From an uncultured Ardenticatenia bacterium (GTDB lineage Bacteria; Chloroflexota; Anaerolineae; 4572-78; NAK82): a DNA stretch of 64,000 nucleotides. Where the stretch lies: contig CAKZLO010000074.1 in assembly GCA_937127125.1 (NCBI GenBank), positions 1-64,000 on the forward strand. Reading direction: 5' to 3'. Position numbers and translations under genes: made by a program. Position 1 is the stretch's first letter; each line of letters starts with the position of its first letter. A model generated the notes under the pieces. It searched no databases, was not told the DNA's origin, and saw nothing but the letters and a program-made list of their open reading frames with translations. Of this stretch, positions 34,324 through 41,290 are shown one piece after another.

Positions 34324-34968
34324 ATGTTGGTACGCGAACGCATGAGCAAGCACGTTTTGACTGTCAAGCCAAATGCGCCCGTGGACGAAACGCTACGCCG
34401 TATGCGCCTCGAAAAAGTCCGCCGTTTCCCAGTGGTTGACAATGAGGGGCGATTAGTAGGGATTGTGTCAGAGAGGGACCTGCTATACGCTGCTCCATCG
34501 CCGGCAACGTCGCTCTCGGTGTATGAACTCCATTATCTTTATTCGCGCATTAAAGTCGAACAGGTGATGACGCGTGAAGTTGTCACTGTCAACTACGATG
34601 ACCCAATCGAAGAAGCTGCCCGCCTCATGGCAGATCACCGGATAGGTGGACTTCCTGTGATGCGCGAGGGTGAGCTGGTTGGAATTATCACGGAGACTGA
34701 CATCTTTAAAGCTTTTATGGAAATGCTCGGGGCGCGCGACCAGGGCATCCGCGTGACCGTATCCTGCCACGACAAGCGAGGCGAGCTGGCTTCTATTACG
34801 GGTGCGATTGCACGTCTGGGTGGCAATATTATTAGCTTGAGCACATTCTGGGGAGAGGATGCCACTACTTCCTACATCACGTTGAAGGTCTCAGAAGTGG
34901 ACAAAGAGACTTTGATCAATGAGATCAAACCACTTGTGATTGAGATCGTCGATGTGCGGGAGATGTAA
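34324..34968 (+). CDS. CBS-CBS-ACT protein (AcuB-like)
   Basis: A 214-residue cytoplasmic sensor. CBS domain 1 (about 1-60; MSKHVLTVKPNAPVDETLRR) and CBS domain 2 (about 76-135; VMTREVVTVNYDDPIEEAA ... GIITETDIFKAF) form a Bateman module that usually binds adenosine nucleotides. A C-terminal ACT domain follows (VTVSCHDKRGELASITGAI), usually a small-molecule, often amino-acid, binding site. Named AcuB-like by architecture only; the regulated partner is unknown. Convergent with rmlD, with a 10-bp gap. Confidence 0.88.
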   Translation: MLVRERMSKHVLTVKPNAPVDETLRRMRLEKVRRFPVVDNEGRLVGIVSERDLLYAAPSPATSLSVYELHYLYSRIKVEQVMTREVVTVNYDDPIEEAARLMADHRIGGLPVMREGELVGIITETDIFKAFMEMLGARDQGIRVTVSCHDKRGELASITGAIARLGGNIISLSTFWGEDATTSYITLKVSEVDKETLINEIKPLVIEIVDVREM

Positions 34969-34978
34969 CCGCTCGTAT

Positions 34979-35842
34979 TCATTTTCGGAAATAATCTTGC
35001 AAGGCTTCTTGCCACGGCCTGAGGCGAATGCCAAGTGCAGCCCCTGCCATATTCTGCAGCGGAGCGAAAGCAGGTGGCTGTGACGCGCGCTTGAATTGAT
35101 CGCGCGTGATAGGGCGCACGGGAATCCCGGTTCGTCCTGCTTGTTTTAGAATTTCTGTGGCGTATTCGTAGCGCGAGCAGTACCCTTCATTTACAAGATG
35201 ATAGATACCATAGTGCTCGGTGGTGATCAATCGCCAAATCGCTTCCGCCACGTCGGGCGCATAGGTGGGATTAGCGACCTCATCCGTCACGACTTGTAGC
35301 TCTCCATGTTGATCTGCCCGTGACAGTATCTTGCTGACAAAGTTGTTTCCGTTCGGGGCAAAGAGCCAGCTAACGCGCACGATGTAGAGCTTGTGCAACA
35401 GCCGGGCAGCGACCACTTCACCGGCTAGCTTCGACTCGCCATAGGGATTGATAGGATGTGGTTCGTCAAACTCGAGGTAGGGTCTTTCACTCGTACCATC
35501 AAATACCTCATTTGTGCTGATATACACCATTGCGGCACCAGCCCGCTGACACAACAGCGCAACGTTTTGGGTGCCAAAAGCGTTCACTCGGAATGCTTCC
35601 TCAGGATTGCGTGCACAACCATCCACATCGGTCATTGCTGCGCAGTGGATCACCAGATGAGGCTGCAGCTCGGCCAGTTGTGCCATCTGTCGTGGGTCAG
35701 TGATATCCCATTCTGGCAGATCTACCAGAACAAATTCCACATTGAGCAGACTTGCCTCACCAACCTCGCGGGAAGCATTGGCAAGGGTAGCCCGCAGTGC
35801 TCGTCCCAGCTGTCCATTCGCTCCAGTTATCACAACGCGCAT
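34979..35842 (-). CDS. RmlD-like dTDP-4-dehydrorhamnose reductase/SDR
   Basis: An extended SDR of 287 residues. NAD(P)-binding GANGQLGRAL at the N-terminus, LVIHCAAMTDVDGCARNPEEA and active-site Tyr/Lys in NPYGESKLAGE are classic RmlD blocks. RmlD makes dTDP-L-rhamnose; without rmlABC nearby the sugar specificity is not established. It starts 7 nt after the RibY-like stop, so it is the last gene of the FMN-riboswitch operon. What a nucleotide-sugar reductase would do there is unclear. Confidence 0.85.
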   Translation of the reverse strand: MRVVITGANGQLGRALRATLANASREVGEASLLNVEFVLVDLPEWDITDPRQMAQLAELQPHLVIHCAAMTDVDGCARNPEEAFRVNAFGTQNVALLCQRAGAAMVYISTNEVFDGTSERPYLEFDEPHPINPYGESKLAGEVVAARLLHKLYIVRVSWLFAPNGNNFVSKILSRADQHGELQVVTDEVANPTYAPDVAEAIWRLITTEHYGIYHLVNEGYCSRYEYATEILKQAGRTGIPVRPITRDQFKRASQPPAFAPLQNMAGAALGIRLRPWQEALQDYFRK

Positions 35843-35849
35843 TTCAATG

Positions 35850-36893
35850 TCACTCCACGAACTCGTTGGTATAAAGGCTCTCCACTTCGGGGGCTTTTTC
35901 GATCATTTCTGCTGCCTTCATTACACTGATCGTATCGAGCCAGGCCTGGGCATCGGAGCGACCTAGCGAATCGGTACGCCAGAGCACTAGAGAAGCTTCG
36001 AGTACAGCTCTCTGTGCAGGGACTTTATCATCTGTGATTTCAGGCACGACTTGGCGTACAATTGCAAATGCCTCATCAGGGTGATCAAGTGTATATTGTA
36101 ACCCTTTTAAGAACCCGCGCACCAGTCGACGCACCACGTCGGGTTGTTCTCGAATCATCTTTTCATTGGTGACGATGCCGTTGGATACCATATTGATATA
36201 ATCAGAGGCTTCGAATACGTTGACCTGTCTATTGAGCTGGCGCATTTGTACTGGTTCATTTGCTACATAGATTACCGCGGCATCAACAACCCCTTGAGTC
36301 ACTGATTCCACCTGAGTGAATCCGATCACTTGGAGACGAACCGCCTTTTCGTCCAACTTCGCCGCGTATGCCAGCGCTTTCCAGCCCACATAGCTGGCGC
36401 CATGAAGTGCTGGGATGCCGACTGAGTGTCCCTCCAGTTCCTTAGGTGAGTCGAGGCCTTTCTCGACAGGCACCATCACGCCAACCGGATAACGCTGATA
36501 CCACTTCGCAACATACACGACCGGAAGGCCTTGGGACCGTGCCAACACGACCTGGTCACCACTGGCAACGGCGAACTCGCGCTCACCCTGACCAGTGAGC
36601 GCGACAAAGTCGGTCTCAAAGCCATACTGAATAACCACCGAAAGTCCCTGTTCCTCAAAGAAACCCTTGCTTTGTGCTGCGTAGAGCGGAGCAAACTGTA
36701 CATTAGGAATATAGCCAACTCCCAGTAACACCTGACGCAGCTGATCCGTGCTAGGCAGTGGGTTACTGGTGGCCGTAGGAGCAGACAGTGCCTTTGGAGT
36801 CGGGATCATCGCTGGCTGTGGAGTGCAAGCAACCAGCGCAGCAAGTAAAAGAGCAAGGTATATTATTTGGGTCGTCCACTGTCGAGATTGCAC
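35850..36893 (-). CDS. ribY: RibY-like (NMT1/THI5-like) substrate-binding lipoprotein
   Basis: A 347-residue ABC binding protein. Signal peptide with lipobox LVAC (about residue 23) and a Thr/Pro linker precede the NMT1/THI5/SsuA-like fold: LGVGYIPNVQFAPLYAAQSK, FFEEQGLSVVIQYG, ASGDQVVLARSQGLPVVYVA and GIPALHGASYVGWKAL. This fold is shared by ThiY (pyrimidine precursors), SsuA and RibY. The FMN riboswitch upstream points to riboflavin or a precursor, matching the RibXY system predicted for Chloroflexi. The start is GTG at 36893. The ligand is inferred from the riboswitch, not from pocket residues. Confidence 0.75.
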   Translation of the reverse strand: MQSRQWTTQIIYLALLLAALVACTPQPAMIPTPKALSAPTATSNPLPSTDQLRQVLLGVGYIPNVQFAPLYAAQSKGFFEEQGLSVVIQYGFETDFVALTGQGEREFAVASGDQVVLARSQGLPVVYVAKWYQRYPVGVMVPVEKGLDSPKELEGHSVGIPALHGASYVGWKALAYAAKLDEKAVRLQVIGFTQVESVTQGVVDAAVIYVANEPVQMRQLNRQVNVFEASDYINMVSNGIVTNEKMIREQPDVVRRLVRGFLKGLQYTLDHPDEAFAIVRQVVPEITDDKVPAQRAVLEASLVLWRTDSLGRSDAQAWLDTISVMKAAEMIEKAPEVESLYTNEFVE

Positions 36894-36946
36894 TTTCCTG
36901 CTGTCCTTTCTGCCTGAGAAGAGTGGAGATGAAATAAATAAGGGGG

Positions 36947-37816
36947 TTATGCATCACGCCAGCGTAGCAGCCACTTTTCGAGTAGCATAACAATGCCATA
37001 CAAGCTTAGGGCAATGACCACCAGGGTCAGCACGGCCACAAAGACCAGTGGGGTATTGAACAAGCCACGAGCTTGGTTGATCAGAAATCCCAACCCCTGA
37101 TCAGCCCCCACAAACTCTCCTACGACGGCACCCACGACTGATAATGTGACGGCAATGCGCAGTCCACCTAAAAATACTGGTAACGCGGCAGGTACTTCTA
37201 ACATCCGGAATGTCTGCCAACGGCTTGCTTCTAGTGAACGCATCAGCTCGTGCAGCTCCTTTGGAACATCCCGTATACCGACGACGACGCTGATCAAGAG
37301 TGGGAAGAACACGATTAATGCGCATATCAGCATTTTGCTCAATTGCCCGGACCCAAACCAGATAACAAGCAAAGGGGCAATTGCCACAATAGGCACTGAT
37401 TGTGAGACGACGAGGAACGGGGTAGAAAGGCGCTCCAAGCGGCGACTTTTGGCAAGGGGATAGCCCAGTGCCAGCGCTGTCACAAGCCCCAAGATTAACC
37501 CGGCACTTACTTCAACCAAAGTAACACTGGTGTGGCGCCAGAGGGTGCCATCAACGATTACTTTTTGCGCCGTGCTGAATACGTCGGACGGCGAGGGAAG
37601 AATGAAGCTGGGGTAACGGGTCACCCACACCACGAATTGCCAAGTGGCTAACAATGCCACCGCAGCCAGTGGCACGATCAACACATCCCAACGCAGACGG
37701 GGTACATTCAGTGGTCCTATAGTAAACCGTATGATCCGTTGACGTACACGACAAGGTTGCACGTTACCCAAACTGTCTGAAGAACATCCAGTCTTGACTG
37801 TAATCATATGCGCCAT
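36947..37816 (-). CDS. ribX: RibX-like ABC transporter permease
   Basis: A 289-residue membrane protein of the BPD-transporter family (SsuC/ThiX/RibX type) with about six membrane segments. The first segment is around residues 44-67. The ATPase-contact EAA loop reads LMRSLEASRWQTFRMLEVPAALPVFLGG. It is 53 nt before the RibY-like gene and 16 nt after the gene upstream. No ABC ATPase occurs in the operon; an unlinked or shared ATPase is assumed. Confidence 0.78.
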   Translation of the reverse strand: MAHMITVKTGCSSDSLGNVQPCRVRQRIIRFTIGPLNVPRLRWDVLIVPLAAVALLATWQFVVWVTRYPSFILPSPSDVFSTAQKVIVDGTLWRHTSVTLVEVSAGLILGLVTALALGYPLAKSRRLERLSTPFLVVSQSVPIVAIAPLLVIWFGSGQLSKMLICALIVFFPLLISVVVGIRDVPKELHELMRSLEASRWQTFRMLEVPAALPVFLGGLRIAVTLSVVGAVVGEFVGADQGLGFLINQARGLFNTPLVFVAVLTLVVIALSLYGIVMLLEKWLLRWRDA

Positions 37817-37832
37817 AGAGATATTTCTCCCC

Positions 37833-38276
37833 CTATTCTCCTTGGGGCACGGCAGTGGCTGTTAGCTGGAGCAGTCCCATATCGACGCGCGACCCTGCCA
37901 CCACCACAACAGAGAACTCACGGCCAGCGCCCTGGTGAGCCACGACTATTGCTTGTTGACCGGCTGGCACACCTTGAAGCTCAAAACTGCCATCCTCACT
38001 ACTTCGAGCTTCGATGGAGGTTCGCAGGACGAAGATATCTGCCTCGAGCGGCCTGTTTTTTTCGTCCACTACTCGACCGGTTACTGTGCCTGTGCCGACC
38101 AAAAGTTCTGCTGAGCTGCTGCGCATAAAGTTGATCAAAACTAGCCCTACGAAAGCTGCGGCTAGCACTAAGATGACAACCCACAACCACCTGTGCCGGG
38201 TTGATGATTCGGGTGGGGGAGAGGGGGGCAATCCTTCTGCGTAGGCTTCTAGTGATGGTGACTTCTCATATGGCAT
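37833..38276 (-). CDS. Membrane-anchored protein with carboxypeptidase-regulatory-like domain
   Basis: A 147-residue protein. A cytoplasmic Pro/Ser-rich N-terminus (about 1-29) leads to one membrane helix (WLWVVILVLAAAFVGLVLI, about 31-50), then an extracytoplasmic beta-sandwich (GTVTGRVVDEKNRPLEADIF ... SSEDGSFELQGVPAGQQAIV). This resembles carboxypeptidase-D regulatory-like folds found in surface proteins. No enzymatic motif. ATG at 38276 with GGGGAG 5 nt upstream. It lies 20 nt after the pilin-like/LamG gene and 16 nt before ribX, inside the FMN-riboswitch operon. Function unknown. Confidence 0.7.
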   Translation of the reverse strand: MPYEKSPSLEAYAEGLPPSPPPESSTRHRWLWVVILVLAAAFVGLVLINFMRSSSAELLVGTGTVTGRVVDEKNRPLEADIFVLRTSIEARSSEDGSFELQGVPAGQQAIVVAHQGAGREFSVVVVAGSRVDMGLLQLTATAVPQGE

Positions 38277-38296
38277 AAAAGCTCCCCTATCGTCAA

Positions 38297-38983
38297 TCAA
38301 GGCAATGGATCAATCGATAGATCATCAAAGCACACCTGGGATGCATCCCAGGTGCGAAAACCAACACCGCCGTGGGTGTATGTATCATCTCTACCGGTCA
38401 GTACTTGATTGCCATCCACATATGCAGTAAAAGTGTTTCCATTGACTAGAACTGCGATCTGGTAGCTGGTGCCCCACCAATTGAAGCCCGGTGCACGGGC
38501 TACAGCGAAGGGGGACAGCTCATTGCCTCTCACCCACTTCCTGAAGATAAACGAACTCGCGTACCCTGGATCAAACTGGAATGTGTAACCATCGACCCGG
38601 TCGAAATTCGTTGCTCGAAAGTAGACGCCATACCCATTGCCTTGTTGCAACAAGGCCACTCTGATGCGAATCGCATAGTTGCTGTACGAGAGCGGTATGA
38701 ACATGCGACCCTCTCGGCCACCCCCACATAGTTGTCCGTTCTCAATGCGCCAATTCCCGTTGACGATGGTCCAGGCATCCAGACCAGAGAAGTCTTCAAC
38801 AAAATAGTGCATACAAGATGCCGGCTGGTCAGCCAGAGTGCCTGCCACCGTGCAATAAATATCCCTTACGCTCGTGCCGGTAGTGGCAAGTGAGAGGGCC
38901 ACTATCCCACCCATAAGGGCAAGGATCAAGACATACTCGATATGTGCTTGGGCATAGACAATTGAGGGCGATCTCCTTGCCAA
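38297..38983 (-). CDS. Flp/type IV pilin-like N-terminus fused to a LamG-like domain
   Basis: About 228 residues. The N-terminus has a class III/Flp-like motif: a short basic leader, then AQAHIEYVLILALMGGIVAL, a hydrophobic pilin-type helix with Glu near position +5. After a Cys-containing link (IYCTVAGTLADQPASC) comes a concanavalin/LamG-like or DUF1080-like beta-sandwich (DFSGLDAWTIVNGNWRIENG ... GVYFRATNF ... GVGFRTWDASQVCFDDLSI). I place the start at TTG 38983 after GGGGGGAG, because the ATG at 39037 lies inside the riboswitch terminator. First gene after the FMN riboswitch. Role unknown; a surface-exposed or pilus-linked sugar-binding protein is a guess. Confidence 0.65.
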   Translation of the reverse strand: MARRSPSIVYAQAHIEYVLILALMGGIVALSLATTGTSVRDIYCTVAGTLADQPASCMHYFVEDFSGLDAWTIVNGNWRIENGQLCGGGREGRMFIPLSYSNYAIRIRVALLQQGNGYGVYFRATNFDRVDGYTFQFDPGYASSFIFRKWVRGNELSPFAVARAPGFNWWGTSYQIAVLVNGNTFTAYVDGNQVLTGRDDTYTHGGVGFRTWDASQVCFDDLSIDPLP

Positions 38984-39005
38984 CTTTGTGTGTCTCCCCC
39001 CTTGA

Positions 39006-39045
39006 CAAAAAACACAACCCCGAAGATATCTTTGCATCTTCGGGG
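39006..39045 (-). terminator. Riboswitch-controlled intrinsic terminator
   Basis: CCCCGAAGAT and ATCTTCGGGG (39036-39045 and 39018-39027 on the plus strand) form a perfect 10-bp stem with an 8-nt loop, followed on the minus strand by TTGTGTTTTTTG. The descending arm is identical to the 5' strand of the riboswitch P1 (39299-39308), so the ascending arm can pair with either. This is the expression platform of the FMN riboswitch. Confidence 0.92.
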
Positions 39046-39120
39046 TCTCTTATGGTGAGCTTGCGTCTGCTGCAGCACGGCGGACTCAGTGCCTGCTGGC
39101 AAACCACCTTATGTACAGAC

Positions 39121-39309
39121 CATCTTCTCCCATCCGGACTTTACCGTCGGCTCCGGCCTTTCACCGGATCCACCTCAATGCCATTTTTCTCAACGGCGCA
39201 GAGGGTCGCGGGCTTGGTTGGGAACATGGTATCCCACCTTACCGCCGATCGGGAATTGTCACGTCTGCTCTCTTAGTGAGCAAACGCAACTCACCCTGCC
39301 CCGAAGATC
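39121..39309 (-). ncRNA. FMN riboswitch (RFN element)
   Basis: A full RFN aptamer on the minus strand. The 5' end reads ATCTTCGGGGCAGGGTGA, then AATTCCCGATCGGCGGTA, AAGCCCGCGA, GGATCCGGTGAAAGGCCGG and GCCGACGGTAAAGTCCGGATG, ending GGGAGAAGAT. P1 pairs ATCTTC (39303-39308) with GAAGAT (39122-39127). It binds FMN and, with the terminator at 39006-39045, would stop transcription when FMN is plentiful. The genes downstream are not ribDEHC but the pilin-like/RibXY operon. Confidence 0.97.
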
Positions 39310-39334
39310 GTCTCACTATTCAATTGGCAAAGCA

Positions 39335-39363
39335 ATTATAACCTGCCACTGCAGCTTTGTCAA
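39335..39363 (-). promoter_or_regulatory. Sigma-A promoter of the FMN-riboswitch operon
   Basis: On the minus strand: -35 TTGACA, 17-nt spacer, -10 TATAAT; an exact consensus. Transcription would begin about 20 nt before the riboswitch P1. It is divergent from the glmS-like promoter, 41 nt away. Confidence 0.95.
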
Positions 39364-39403
39364 ATTTTGTCTTAGAGTGCAACCGGAAACCGGGAAAATT
39401 CCC

Positions 39404-39432
39404 TTGACACATGTAGTACTCTATGTTATAGT
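39404..39432 (+). promoter_or_regulatory. Sigma-A promoter of the glmS-like/liv operon
   Basis: -35 TTGACA, 17-nt spacer, -10 TATAGT. Leader of about 64 nt to the ATG at 39503. No glmS-ribozyme motif is seen in the leader. Confidence 0.9.
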
Positions 39433-39502
39433 GATTTATATTTTCAGGTCGCCAACGCGTAGTAGATTCTCTCTTTTATTGTTCTGTTCCACCTGATCAA
39501 CG

Positions 39503-41290
39503 ATGTGTGGCATCTTTGGCATTATCACTGCTCAGGAGACCAACCTGGGGCCTCTGCTGACCGAGGCAGGCCGTCGGCTCGCTTATCGCGGCTACGACTC
39601 GGCGGGATGTGCTACAGTGTCCAAGAATGGTATTGATCTGCGCAAGGATGTGGGCCGTGTGGACGAGGTGGCCCAGCGATTGGGCTTTGCCGAGATGCGT
39701 GGCCGTCGTGGCATCGTACAGGTGCGTTGGGCCACCTTTGGTGAGCTGGCGCGGCGCAATGCACAGCCGCATCTGGATTGCGACGGTGATATCGTAGGGG
39801 CGCATAACGGCAATATCATCAACAATGTGCAGATGCGCGAGCTGTTTGCACGAGAGGGACACAGCGTTCGTGGCGAGAACGATGGCGAAACGTGCATCCA
39901 TGCCGTAGAGCGTCATTTCGACCGTGGCTGTGACATGGTAGAGGCAATCCGGCGTGCTCACGCCGATCTGGAGGGCGATTATGCCTTTGTTATCACGCAC
40001 CGTGACAATGAGGAGCTGTATGCGATAAAGAAAGGCTCCGGATTGGTGGTGGGCATTGGCGAAGGGTTCACGTGTTGTTCCTCTGATTTACACTCCATCC
40101 TCCCGCTGACGCGTCGTTTCTTGCGTGTGCGCGATGGAGAGATAGTGATCCTGCGGCCGCATGAGGTCGTGCTGTTGCGCGTCAGCGATGCTGCTCCAGT
40201 CGAGCGCACTCCAGAGGTGTTTGAGGGGGAAGTGCCCATCGCTGACAAGGGTGACTTTCCCCATTTCATCCTGAAGGAAATCTACGAGCAGCCTCGTGTG
40301 GTGAGCGAGCTATTGCGCCATCTCAGCAAGGATGCTACAGTGGCGCGTTTTTTGGCCGCTTTGCGTGCAGCTCATCCTTTGTTCCTGGTGGGCAGTGGCA
40401 GCAGTTTTCATGCCTGTTTGCTTGGCAGCTATTACTTTAGCCGCCTAGCTGGCAAGCTAGTGATACCGACGTTGCCGGCTCATTTTATTGAGTGCTATGC
40501 ACCCACTCTAGGCTCCGATACCAGCGTAGTTTTCATCAGCCAGAGCGGTGAGACCAAAGATGTGATGAATGCAGTGGGGGTGGCACGCAGCAAAGATGTG
40601 CGTGTGCTCAGCATCGCCAACCTGGAAAGCTCCAGTCTGGTAGGCGCCAGTGAGATGAGCTTGTTCCTTCAGTGTGGCTATGAGTTCAGCGTAGCAGCTA
40701 CCAAAACCTTTGTCAGCGAATGTGTGTTGTTGCTCTATCTGGCGCAACAGCTAGGTGGTATGGATACCTCCTCATTGTGGCAACTGCCGGACTTGCTGGA
40801 GGATACCCTCGAACGCTCAGAGCGTTATGTGGATGGCGTGCTCGCGCACCTAATGGCGATGAACGACATGTATTACCTTGGCTACGGCGTCACGTATCCC
40901 ATCGCGCTGGAAGGTGCCCTCAAGCTGAAGGAGATCACCTATATGCATTGTGAGGGGATCTTCAGCTCTGAGTTCAAGCATGGGCCGCTGTCGGCTGTGG
41001 CGCCTGATTACCCGGTGGTTTTTGTCACCGCGCCTCATGACGTGGATATGATGATCAACCATGTCAATGAGGTCACGTGTCGGGGAGGCATTGCGATTGC
41101 GCTGGCAGAGGAGGATGAACGACTGCGCAAGAATGTGCAGGCCTATTTCCCCCTGCCCGCGGCGGGCCAATGGCTTAATCCCATCTTGGCGACACTGCCG
41201 TTGCAGCTGGTTGCCTATCGGGCCAGTGTGCGACTAGGGTTGGATCCTGACTATCCGCGCAATCTGAGCAAGACGCTGACGGTAGATTGA
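39503..41290 (+). CDS. GlmS-like glutamine amidotransferase with SIS domains
   Basis: A 595-residue class II amidotransferase related to glutamine-fructose-6-phosphate transaminase, which makes glucosamine-6-P. The nucleophile Cys is at position 2 (MCGIFGI). The glutaminase site is diverged: VRWATFGELARRNAQPH and AHNGNIINN instead of TRWATHG...NAHPH and HNGIIEN, which gives it some PurF-like features. Two SIS domains follow: GSGSSFHACLLGSYYF, FISQSGETKDVMNA, EFSVAATKTF and FKHGPLSAV, ending YPRNLSKTLTVD as in GlmS. It could be the housekeeping GlmS of this lineage or a specialised amino-sugar enzyme. It lies 37 nt before livG. Confidence 0.8.
   Translation: MCGIFGIITAQETNLGPLLTEAGRRLAYRGYDSAGCATVSKNGIDLRKDVGRVDEVAQRLGFAEMRGRRGIVQVRWATFGELARRNAQPHLDCDGDIVGAHNGNIINNVQMRELFAREGHSVRGENDGETCIHAVERHFDRGCDMVEAIRRAHADLEGDYAFVITHRDNEELYAIKKGSGLVVGIGEGFTCCSSDLHSILPLTRRFLRVRDGEIVILRPHEVVLLRVSDAAPVERTPEVFEGEVPIADKGDFPHFILKEIYEQPRVVSELLRHLSKDATVARFLAALRAAHPLFLVGSGSSFHACLLGSYYFSRLAGKLVIPTLPAHFIECYAPTLGSDTSVVFISQSGETKDVMNAVGVARSKDVRVLSIANLESSSLVGASEMSLFLQCGYEFSVAATKTFVSECVLLLYLAQQLGGMDTSSLWQLPDLLEDTLERSERYVDGVLAHLMAMNDMYYLGYGVTYPIALEGALKLKEITYMHCEGIFSSEFKHGPLSAVAPDYPVVFVTAPHDVDMMINHVNEVTCRGGIAIALAEEDERLRKNVQAYFPLPAAGQWLNPILATLPLQLVAYRASVRLGLDPDYPRNLSKTLTVD

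Follow-up and report, generated by a model that had tools for sequence, protein, structure and literature searches.

The window analysed here, a 64,000 nt stretch of contig CAKZLO010000074.1 from an uncultured Ardenticatenia bacterium (Chloroflexota, class Anaerolineae), carries an operon in which a flavin mononucleotide (FMN) riboswitch stands ahead of two surface-protein genes, the riboflavin transporter genes ribX and ribY, and rmlD. The operon is real, is conserved in one genus and is best described as a variant of the FMN-ribXY operon. We consider it probable that the five genes form an operon repressed by FMN in a predicted riboflavin auxotroph, where a shortage of flavin raises uptake and alters the cell surface or its pilus; flavin import and a sugar-binding pilin of the Tad type are most likely induced together under flavin starvation. 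The regulatory link between the flavin switch and the pilin is well supported, and its purpose is something we infer. The features, in order of transcription, are as follows.

39335-39363, minus strand: sigma-70-type promoter, TTGACA-17-TATAAT, 12/12 consensus positions
39118-39312, minus strand: FMN riboswitch aptamer (RFN element, RF00050), 93.2 bits, E 4e-20, full length (model positions 1-138)
39016-39047, minus strand: intrinsic terminator of the expression platform, 13 bp stem and T run
38297-38983, minus strand: gene 1, Tad/Flp-type (class III, type IVb) prepilin with a C-terminal CBM66/3-keto-disaccharide-hydrolase-like jelly roll, TTG start (PF06439, E 1e-10)
37833-38276, minus strand: gene 2, bitopic membrane protein with a CarboxypepD_reg domain (PF13620, E 3.5e-8)
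36947-37816, minus strand: RibX, riboflavin ATP-binding cassette (ABC) transporter permease (PF00528, E 2.6e-33)
35850-36893, minus strand: RibY, lipoprotein of the NMT1/THI5 family with predicted riboflavin binding (PF09084, E 4.4e-50)
34979-35842, minus strand: RmlD, deoxythymidine diphosphate (dTDP)-4-dehydrorhamnose reductase (TIGR01214, 287.9 bits)

The initial annotation had claimed a consensus promoter, a full RFN aptamer and a same-strand run of five genes, all of which are confirmed by the scores above and by intergenic gaps of 7-53 nt (20, 16, 53 and 7 nt in order). Gene starts were refined by alignment with relatives, which places the start of gene 1 at TTG 38983; the ATG at 39037 of the mechanically called open reading frame falls within the terminator hairpin. 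Since gene 2 starts at ATG 38276, genes 1 and 2 do not overlap. A separate promoter or terminator between the two surface genes and ribX, which would have spoken against a single unit, was looked for on the minus strand from 34700 to 39700. The interval between them showed neither a promoter nor a terminator ending in a good T tail, only weak intragenic hairpins, and the promoter at 39335-39363 is the sole sigma-70-like site on that strand within those limits. Nothing found therefore splits the surface genes from ribX, since there is no promoter-like site and the hairpins lack a good T tail. The end of the operon abuts a convergent gene for a CBS-domain protein (34324-34968, plus strand).

Relatives were checked for the same two surface genes behind the switch. 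The order RFN, pilin, CarboxypepD_reg gene is present in all three species of the genus, the window genome (G000) and its genus-mates G001 and G002; ribX, ribY and rmlD follow in G000 and G002, while the G001 contig ends within the CarboxypepD_reg gene. The initial proposal, in which the FMN riboswitch controls ribXY together with two preceding surface genes and a following reductase gene, is supported in this form. None of the 42 other RFN-ribX loci shows this arrangement, ribX being the first gene in them (two further loci were left out, that of G004 for a run of N behind the riboswitch and that of G009 for ending too soon). Protein identity among the three genus members is 63-86%. Synonymous divergence (dS) among the three species is near or at saturation, and the ratio of nonsynonymous to synonymous divergence (dN/dS) of the pilin and CarboxypepD_reg genes is about 0.05-0.1 where computable, values about equal to those of ribX, ribY and rmlD between G000 and G002. 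With synonymous sites near or at saturation and dN/dS at 0.05-0.1, the arrangement appears both old and selected; a chance neighbourhood would hardly have survived so long. The rmlD gene is found within the same operon in G002 and also in G006, and RmlD of the window is the sole protein of its genome to exceed the curated cut-off of TIGR01214 (224.05 bits).

Three other RFN loci have orders of their own. In G003, from another genus of the family, the order is RFN-ribX-pdxS-pdxT-ribY (locus L033, contig C164), with vitamin B6 synthase genes between ribX and ribY. Locus L036 (G006, contig C542) has RFN-ribX-rmlD followed by a CBS-domain gene, with no ribY between; ribY may be elsewhere or lost. 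At L045 (G055, contig C228) a single RFN is followed by ribX-ribY-ribZ-ribD-ribE, import and synthesis in one run, with a ribY that looks degenerate.

The aptamer clears the RF00050 gathering cut-off of 66.2 bits, and the 3.73 Mb genome holds no other FMN riboswitch. A promoter-like site comparable to that of the window precedes the RFN in G001, G002, G005, G006 and G016. Each of the three genus members can form 10-11 contiguous pairs between the 5′ strand of aptamer helix P1 (GATCTTCGGGG) and the terminator 5′ arm, and pairings of like kind occur in many RFN leaders of the class. When the leader is folded only up to the terminator 5′ arm, the arm pairs with the P1 5′ strand (about 10 expected pairs) and P1 itself has 0; when the entire leader is folded, P1 (6-9 pairs) and the terminator are both present. 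Folding in silico and sequence together support an expression platform that changes with P1, and hence support reading the leader as an FMN OFF switch working by transcription attenuation/antitermination. In the FMN-bound state P1 would be formed and held by the ligand, and therefore the terminator would fold just ahead of gene 1. Without P1, its 5′ strand and the terminator 5′ arm would make an antiterminator, and RNA polymerase would pass into all five genes. Upstream, positions 39335-39432 hold a divergent pair of near-consensus promoters, separated by about 40 bp; the minus-strand one serves the FMN operon and the plus-strand one (TTGACA-17-TATAGT, preceded by TG) serves a glmS-like gene at 39503.

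The transporter half of the operon is conventional. RibX is mostly 49-76% identical to the first gene after the RFN in other Anaerolineae, and RibY orthologues come after ribX under an RFN throughout the class; a BPD_transp_1 permease and an NMT1-type binding protein under an RFN, the mark of a RibXY transporter, are thus both found here. No solved RibY was found in the PDB; the nearest entry there is 3ix1, a binder of a thiamin precursor. In Escherichia coli, the RibXY of Chloroflexus aurantiacus supported riboflavin uptake (PMC4418817). The gene for the ATPase RibZ, which follows ribY in 32 of the 42 other RFN-ribX loci, is not in the window operon. A solo ATPase gene on contig C34 (150667-151425) falls on a short branch beside ATPases from RFN operons of the same order, in a poorly resolved part of the tree, and RibZ may be available as this detached ATPase. 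Its orthologues in G005 (73%) and G006 (71%) lie on contigs other than those of their RFN operons; in G002 the best RibZ match reaches only 46%.

The riboflavin synthesis families RibH (PF00885) and RibE (PF00677) were not found in the window genome, in either genus-mate or in the rest of the family (seven members). Among 14 control genomes RibH was found in all and RibE in 11. The FAD synthetase/flavokinase family (RibF; FAD, flavin adenine dinucleotide) is present in the window genome. Since RibH and RibE are missing while RibF is kept, the organism is a predicted riboflavin auxotroph, and RibXY is its predicted supply route. In the order-wide sample (G007-G024), nearly every genome lacks RibH and RibE and most have RibF; riboflavin auxotrophy seems to extend across the entire order.

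The first two genes had been described as 'pilin-like/LamG' and 'regulatory-like'. Their surface type holds, and the labels are refined to a Tad/Flp pilin-CBM66 protein and a bitopic CarboxypepD_reg protein. PF06439 matches all 23 members of the gene 1 family, Flp_Fap matches 8 and Class_IIIsignal 3; the window protein itself has neither of the latter two matches. The C-terminal part of the family profile finds the Bacillus subtilis levanase CBM66 (4b1m, E 4.6e-20), and the N-terminal part finds two Flp pilins of solved structure, 8u1k and 8u2b (E about 1e-4). An AlphaFold model of gene 1 (predicted local distance difference test, pLDDT, 87.6) has a 30-residue helix (5-34), a second helix and a jelly roll, which superposes on CBM66 with Z 22.3, template modelling (TM) score 0.84 and root-mean-square deviation 2.1 over 158 residues. 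The function implied by the PF06439 name, 3-keto-disaccharide hydrolase, was not adopted, since by profile and by fold the domain matches CBM66 better. The family has the features of class III prepilins, a short leader and the cleavage motif G^QxxxEY ahead of a hydrophobic helix, with Gln+1 and Glu+5 invariant. Judged by sequence and model, the gene 1 product joins a Tad/Flp pilin to a carbohydrate-binding domain of the CBM66 type, with sugar binding and filament assembly predicted. Gene 2 is predicted from its sequence to have a short cytoplasmic N-terminus, one transmembrane segment and an extracellular CarboxypepD_reg domain; it adjoins the pilin gene in most genomes having the pair and is the usual partner gene of the pilin.

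A pilin search of genome contigs returned only the two genus-mates, the metagenome-assembled genomes SKYB15 and Nak82; the wider family comes from a class-wide genome search. Full-length relatives of gene 1 were found in about two dozen of 396 genomes of the class, most with gene 2 directly behind, so that the pair is a conserved unit in scattered Anaerolineae. Its usual neighbours are a REC+ParA (response-regulator-ParA) protein, with the architecture of TadZ/CpaE, and hybrid histidine kinases. No FMN or other riboswitch was found near the pair elsewhere at the 24 loci examined, where a single tRNA was the only hit. The window genome has a second pair, of the Tad-linked kind, on contig C20. 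In the tree the C20-type and switch-linked types are separated with full support, and the switch-linked type groups with tadZ-linked pairs of other families. The genome also has Tad machinery of its own (RcpC/CpaB, CpaE, CpaF, TadB and TadC on contig C76, and a second Tad locus on C5) and two prepilin peptidases. Contig C20 further holds (locus L169, 8838-9278 and 10299-10697) a third CarboxypepD_reg protein; no CBM66 pilin accompanies it, but a plain Flp-like pilin gene with the motif GQGLVEY lies about 1 kb away.

Under the reading we prefer, and going by the protein families, RibXY with the detached RibZ ATPase would import riboflavin. The Tad pilin, with its CBM66-type sugar-binding head, would be cut by prepilin peptidase and built by Tad machinery encoded elsewhere in the genome, together with its bitopic CarboxypepD_reg partner, and RmlD would make dTDP-L-rhamnose for surface glycans. 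The presence of a sugar-binding Tad pilin and dTDP-rhamnose synthesis under one switch suggests that flavin shortage alters the cell surface. A non-producer short of flavin would raise uptake and change its surface or pilus so as to hold other cells or a polysaccharide matrix, the likely source of the vitamin; a scavenging role through attachment to flavin sources is possible. More tentatively, and with rather less belief than disbelief, we suggest that a vitamin riboswitch might here control a contact pilus, with auxotrophs displaying the sugar-binding Tad pilin as a means of attaching to flavin-producing neighbours or feeding on them; an RNA switch would then tie nutrient status to cell-cell contact.

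Some points weigh against this account. Auxotrophy is called on a 95% complete assembly, though all seven family members lack the enzymes. Before the cleavage site, the three switch-linked copies have Ala and nearly all relatives have Gly. Finally, since the pair elsewhere is independent of flavin genes, its placement could be the borrowing of a convenient promoter.

The last point leads to the rival that survives best, namely that a chance insertion in the ancestor of the genus put the Tad pilin pair behind the FMN promoter and that its expression is tolerated, with no functional link to flavin. Besides the absence of the pair from the 42 other loci and its existence elsewhere without FMN switches, this is favoured by the readiness of the family's operon to take in unrelated genes (pdxS-pdxT in G003, rmlD in G006 and G002) and by the departure of ribZ. 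We nonetheless think it unlikely, as the order has outlived the near-saturation of synonymous sites in three species under strong purifying selection on both genes, and the insertion lies directly behind the switch and before ribX in every one of them. The genus moreover has its second Tad-linked pair at another locus, so the switch-linked copy is not needed merely for having such a pilin.

Improbable, in our judgement, is that genes 1 and 2 encode a surface sensor or receptor pair (a pseudopilin and a CarboxypepD_reg membrane arm) that forms no filament. Homologous pairs do often adjoin hybrid histidine kinases and a response-regulator-ParA protein, and the altered residue before the cleavage site of the switch-linked copies fits as well; yet REC+ParA is the architecture of the Tad assembly protein TadZ/CpaE, and the class III Q+1 and E+5 are invariant in the family. 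The flavin-capture system of the initial annotation, in which the LamG-like and CarboxypepD_reg domains bind riboflavin or flavin carriers and pass them to RibY, agrees with co-regulation with ribXY in the genus but can be set aside almost entirely: gene 1 is a Tad pilin whose head has the CBM66-like sugar-binding fold, not a recognisable flavin-binding protein; at the loci inspected across Anaerolineae the pair adjoins tadZ/cpaE and sensor kinases and has no FMN switch, same-clade members beside tadZ among them; and outside the genus RibXY goes without the pair in all 42 loci, while that of C. aurantiacus supports uptake in E. coli (PMC4418817).

If FMN repression of both uptake and pilin is true, a surface pilin long kept under an FMN switch in a predicted auxotroph would mean that vitamin sensing can govern adhesion. 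The evidence suggests a hot-spring-type Chloroflexota genus in which lack of the vitamin acts on surface contact in addition to uptake, and it offers a link between auxotrophy, riboswitches and contact through pili in microbial mats that can be tested directly. To our knowledge, FMN riboswitches are known almost only ahead of riboflavin synthesis and transport genes. Among the titles and abstracts listed, there was no precedent for an FMN riboswitch with a pilin or for Tad pili with LamG, and no earlier description was found of a Flp pilin with CBM66 and a fixed partner gene in Chloroflexota.

The nearest known system is the Chloroflexota FMN riboswitch-ribXY(Z) operon (PMC3766115; PMC4418817), which shares the RFN, the order ribX then ribY, and transcription attenuation; here, in contrast, two Tad-pilus-type genes come before ribX, rmlD follows ribY and the ATPase gene is elsewhere. 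In Thermaerobacter marianensis, an FMN riboswitch reported ahead of yaaDE (pdxST; PMC4418817) likewise stands over genes outside riboflavin metabolism, as does that of G003 with pdxST inside the ribXY operon, although vitamin B6 synthesis is controlled there and a surface structure here. Among Tad/Flp minor or tip pilins, the Kil pilus Tips of Myxococcus, interchangeable tips exposing variable domains that mediate contact with prey cells (PMC12075869), share a class III prepilin N-terminus joined to a globular domain and Tad machinery in the genome; the present system differs in having a single pilin-CBM66 fusion, a CarboxypepD_reg partner and control by a vitamin riboswitch. The CBM66 of B. 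subtilis levanase (4azz, 4b1l, 4b1m) shares fold and sequence with the C-terminal domain of gene 1, which, unlike it, is carried on a pilin and has no catalytic domain.

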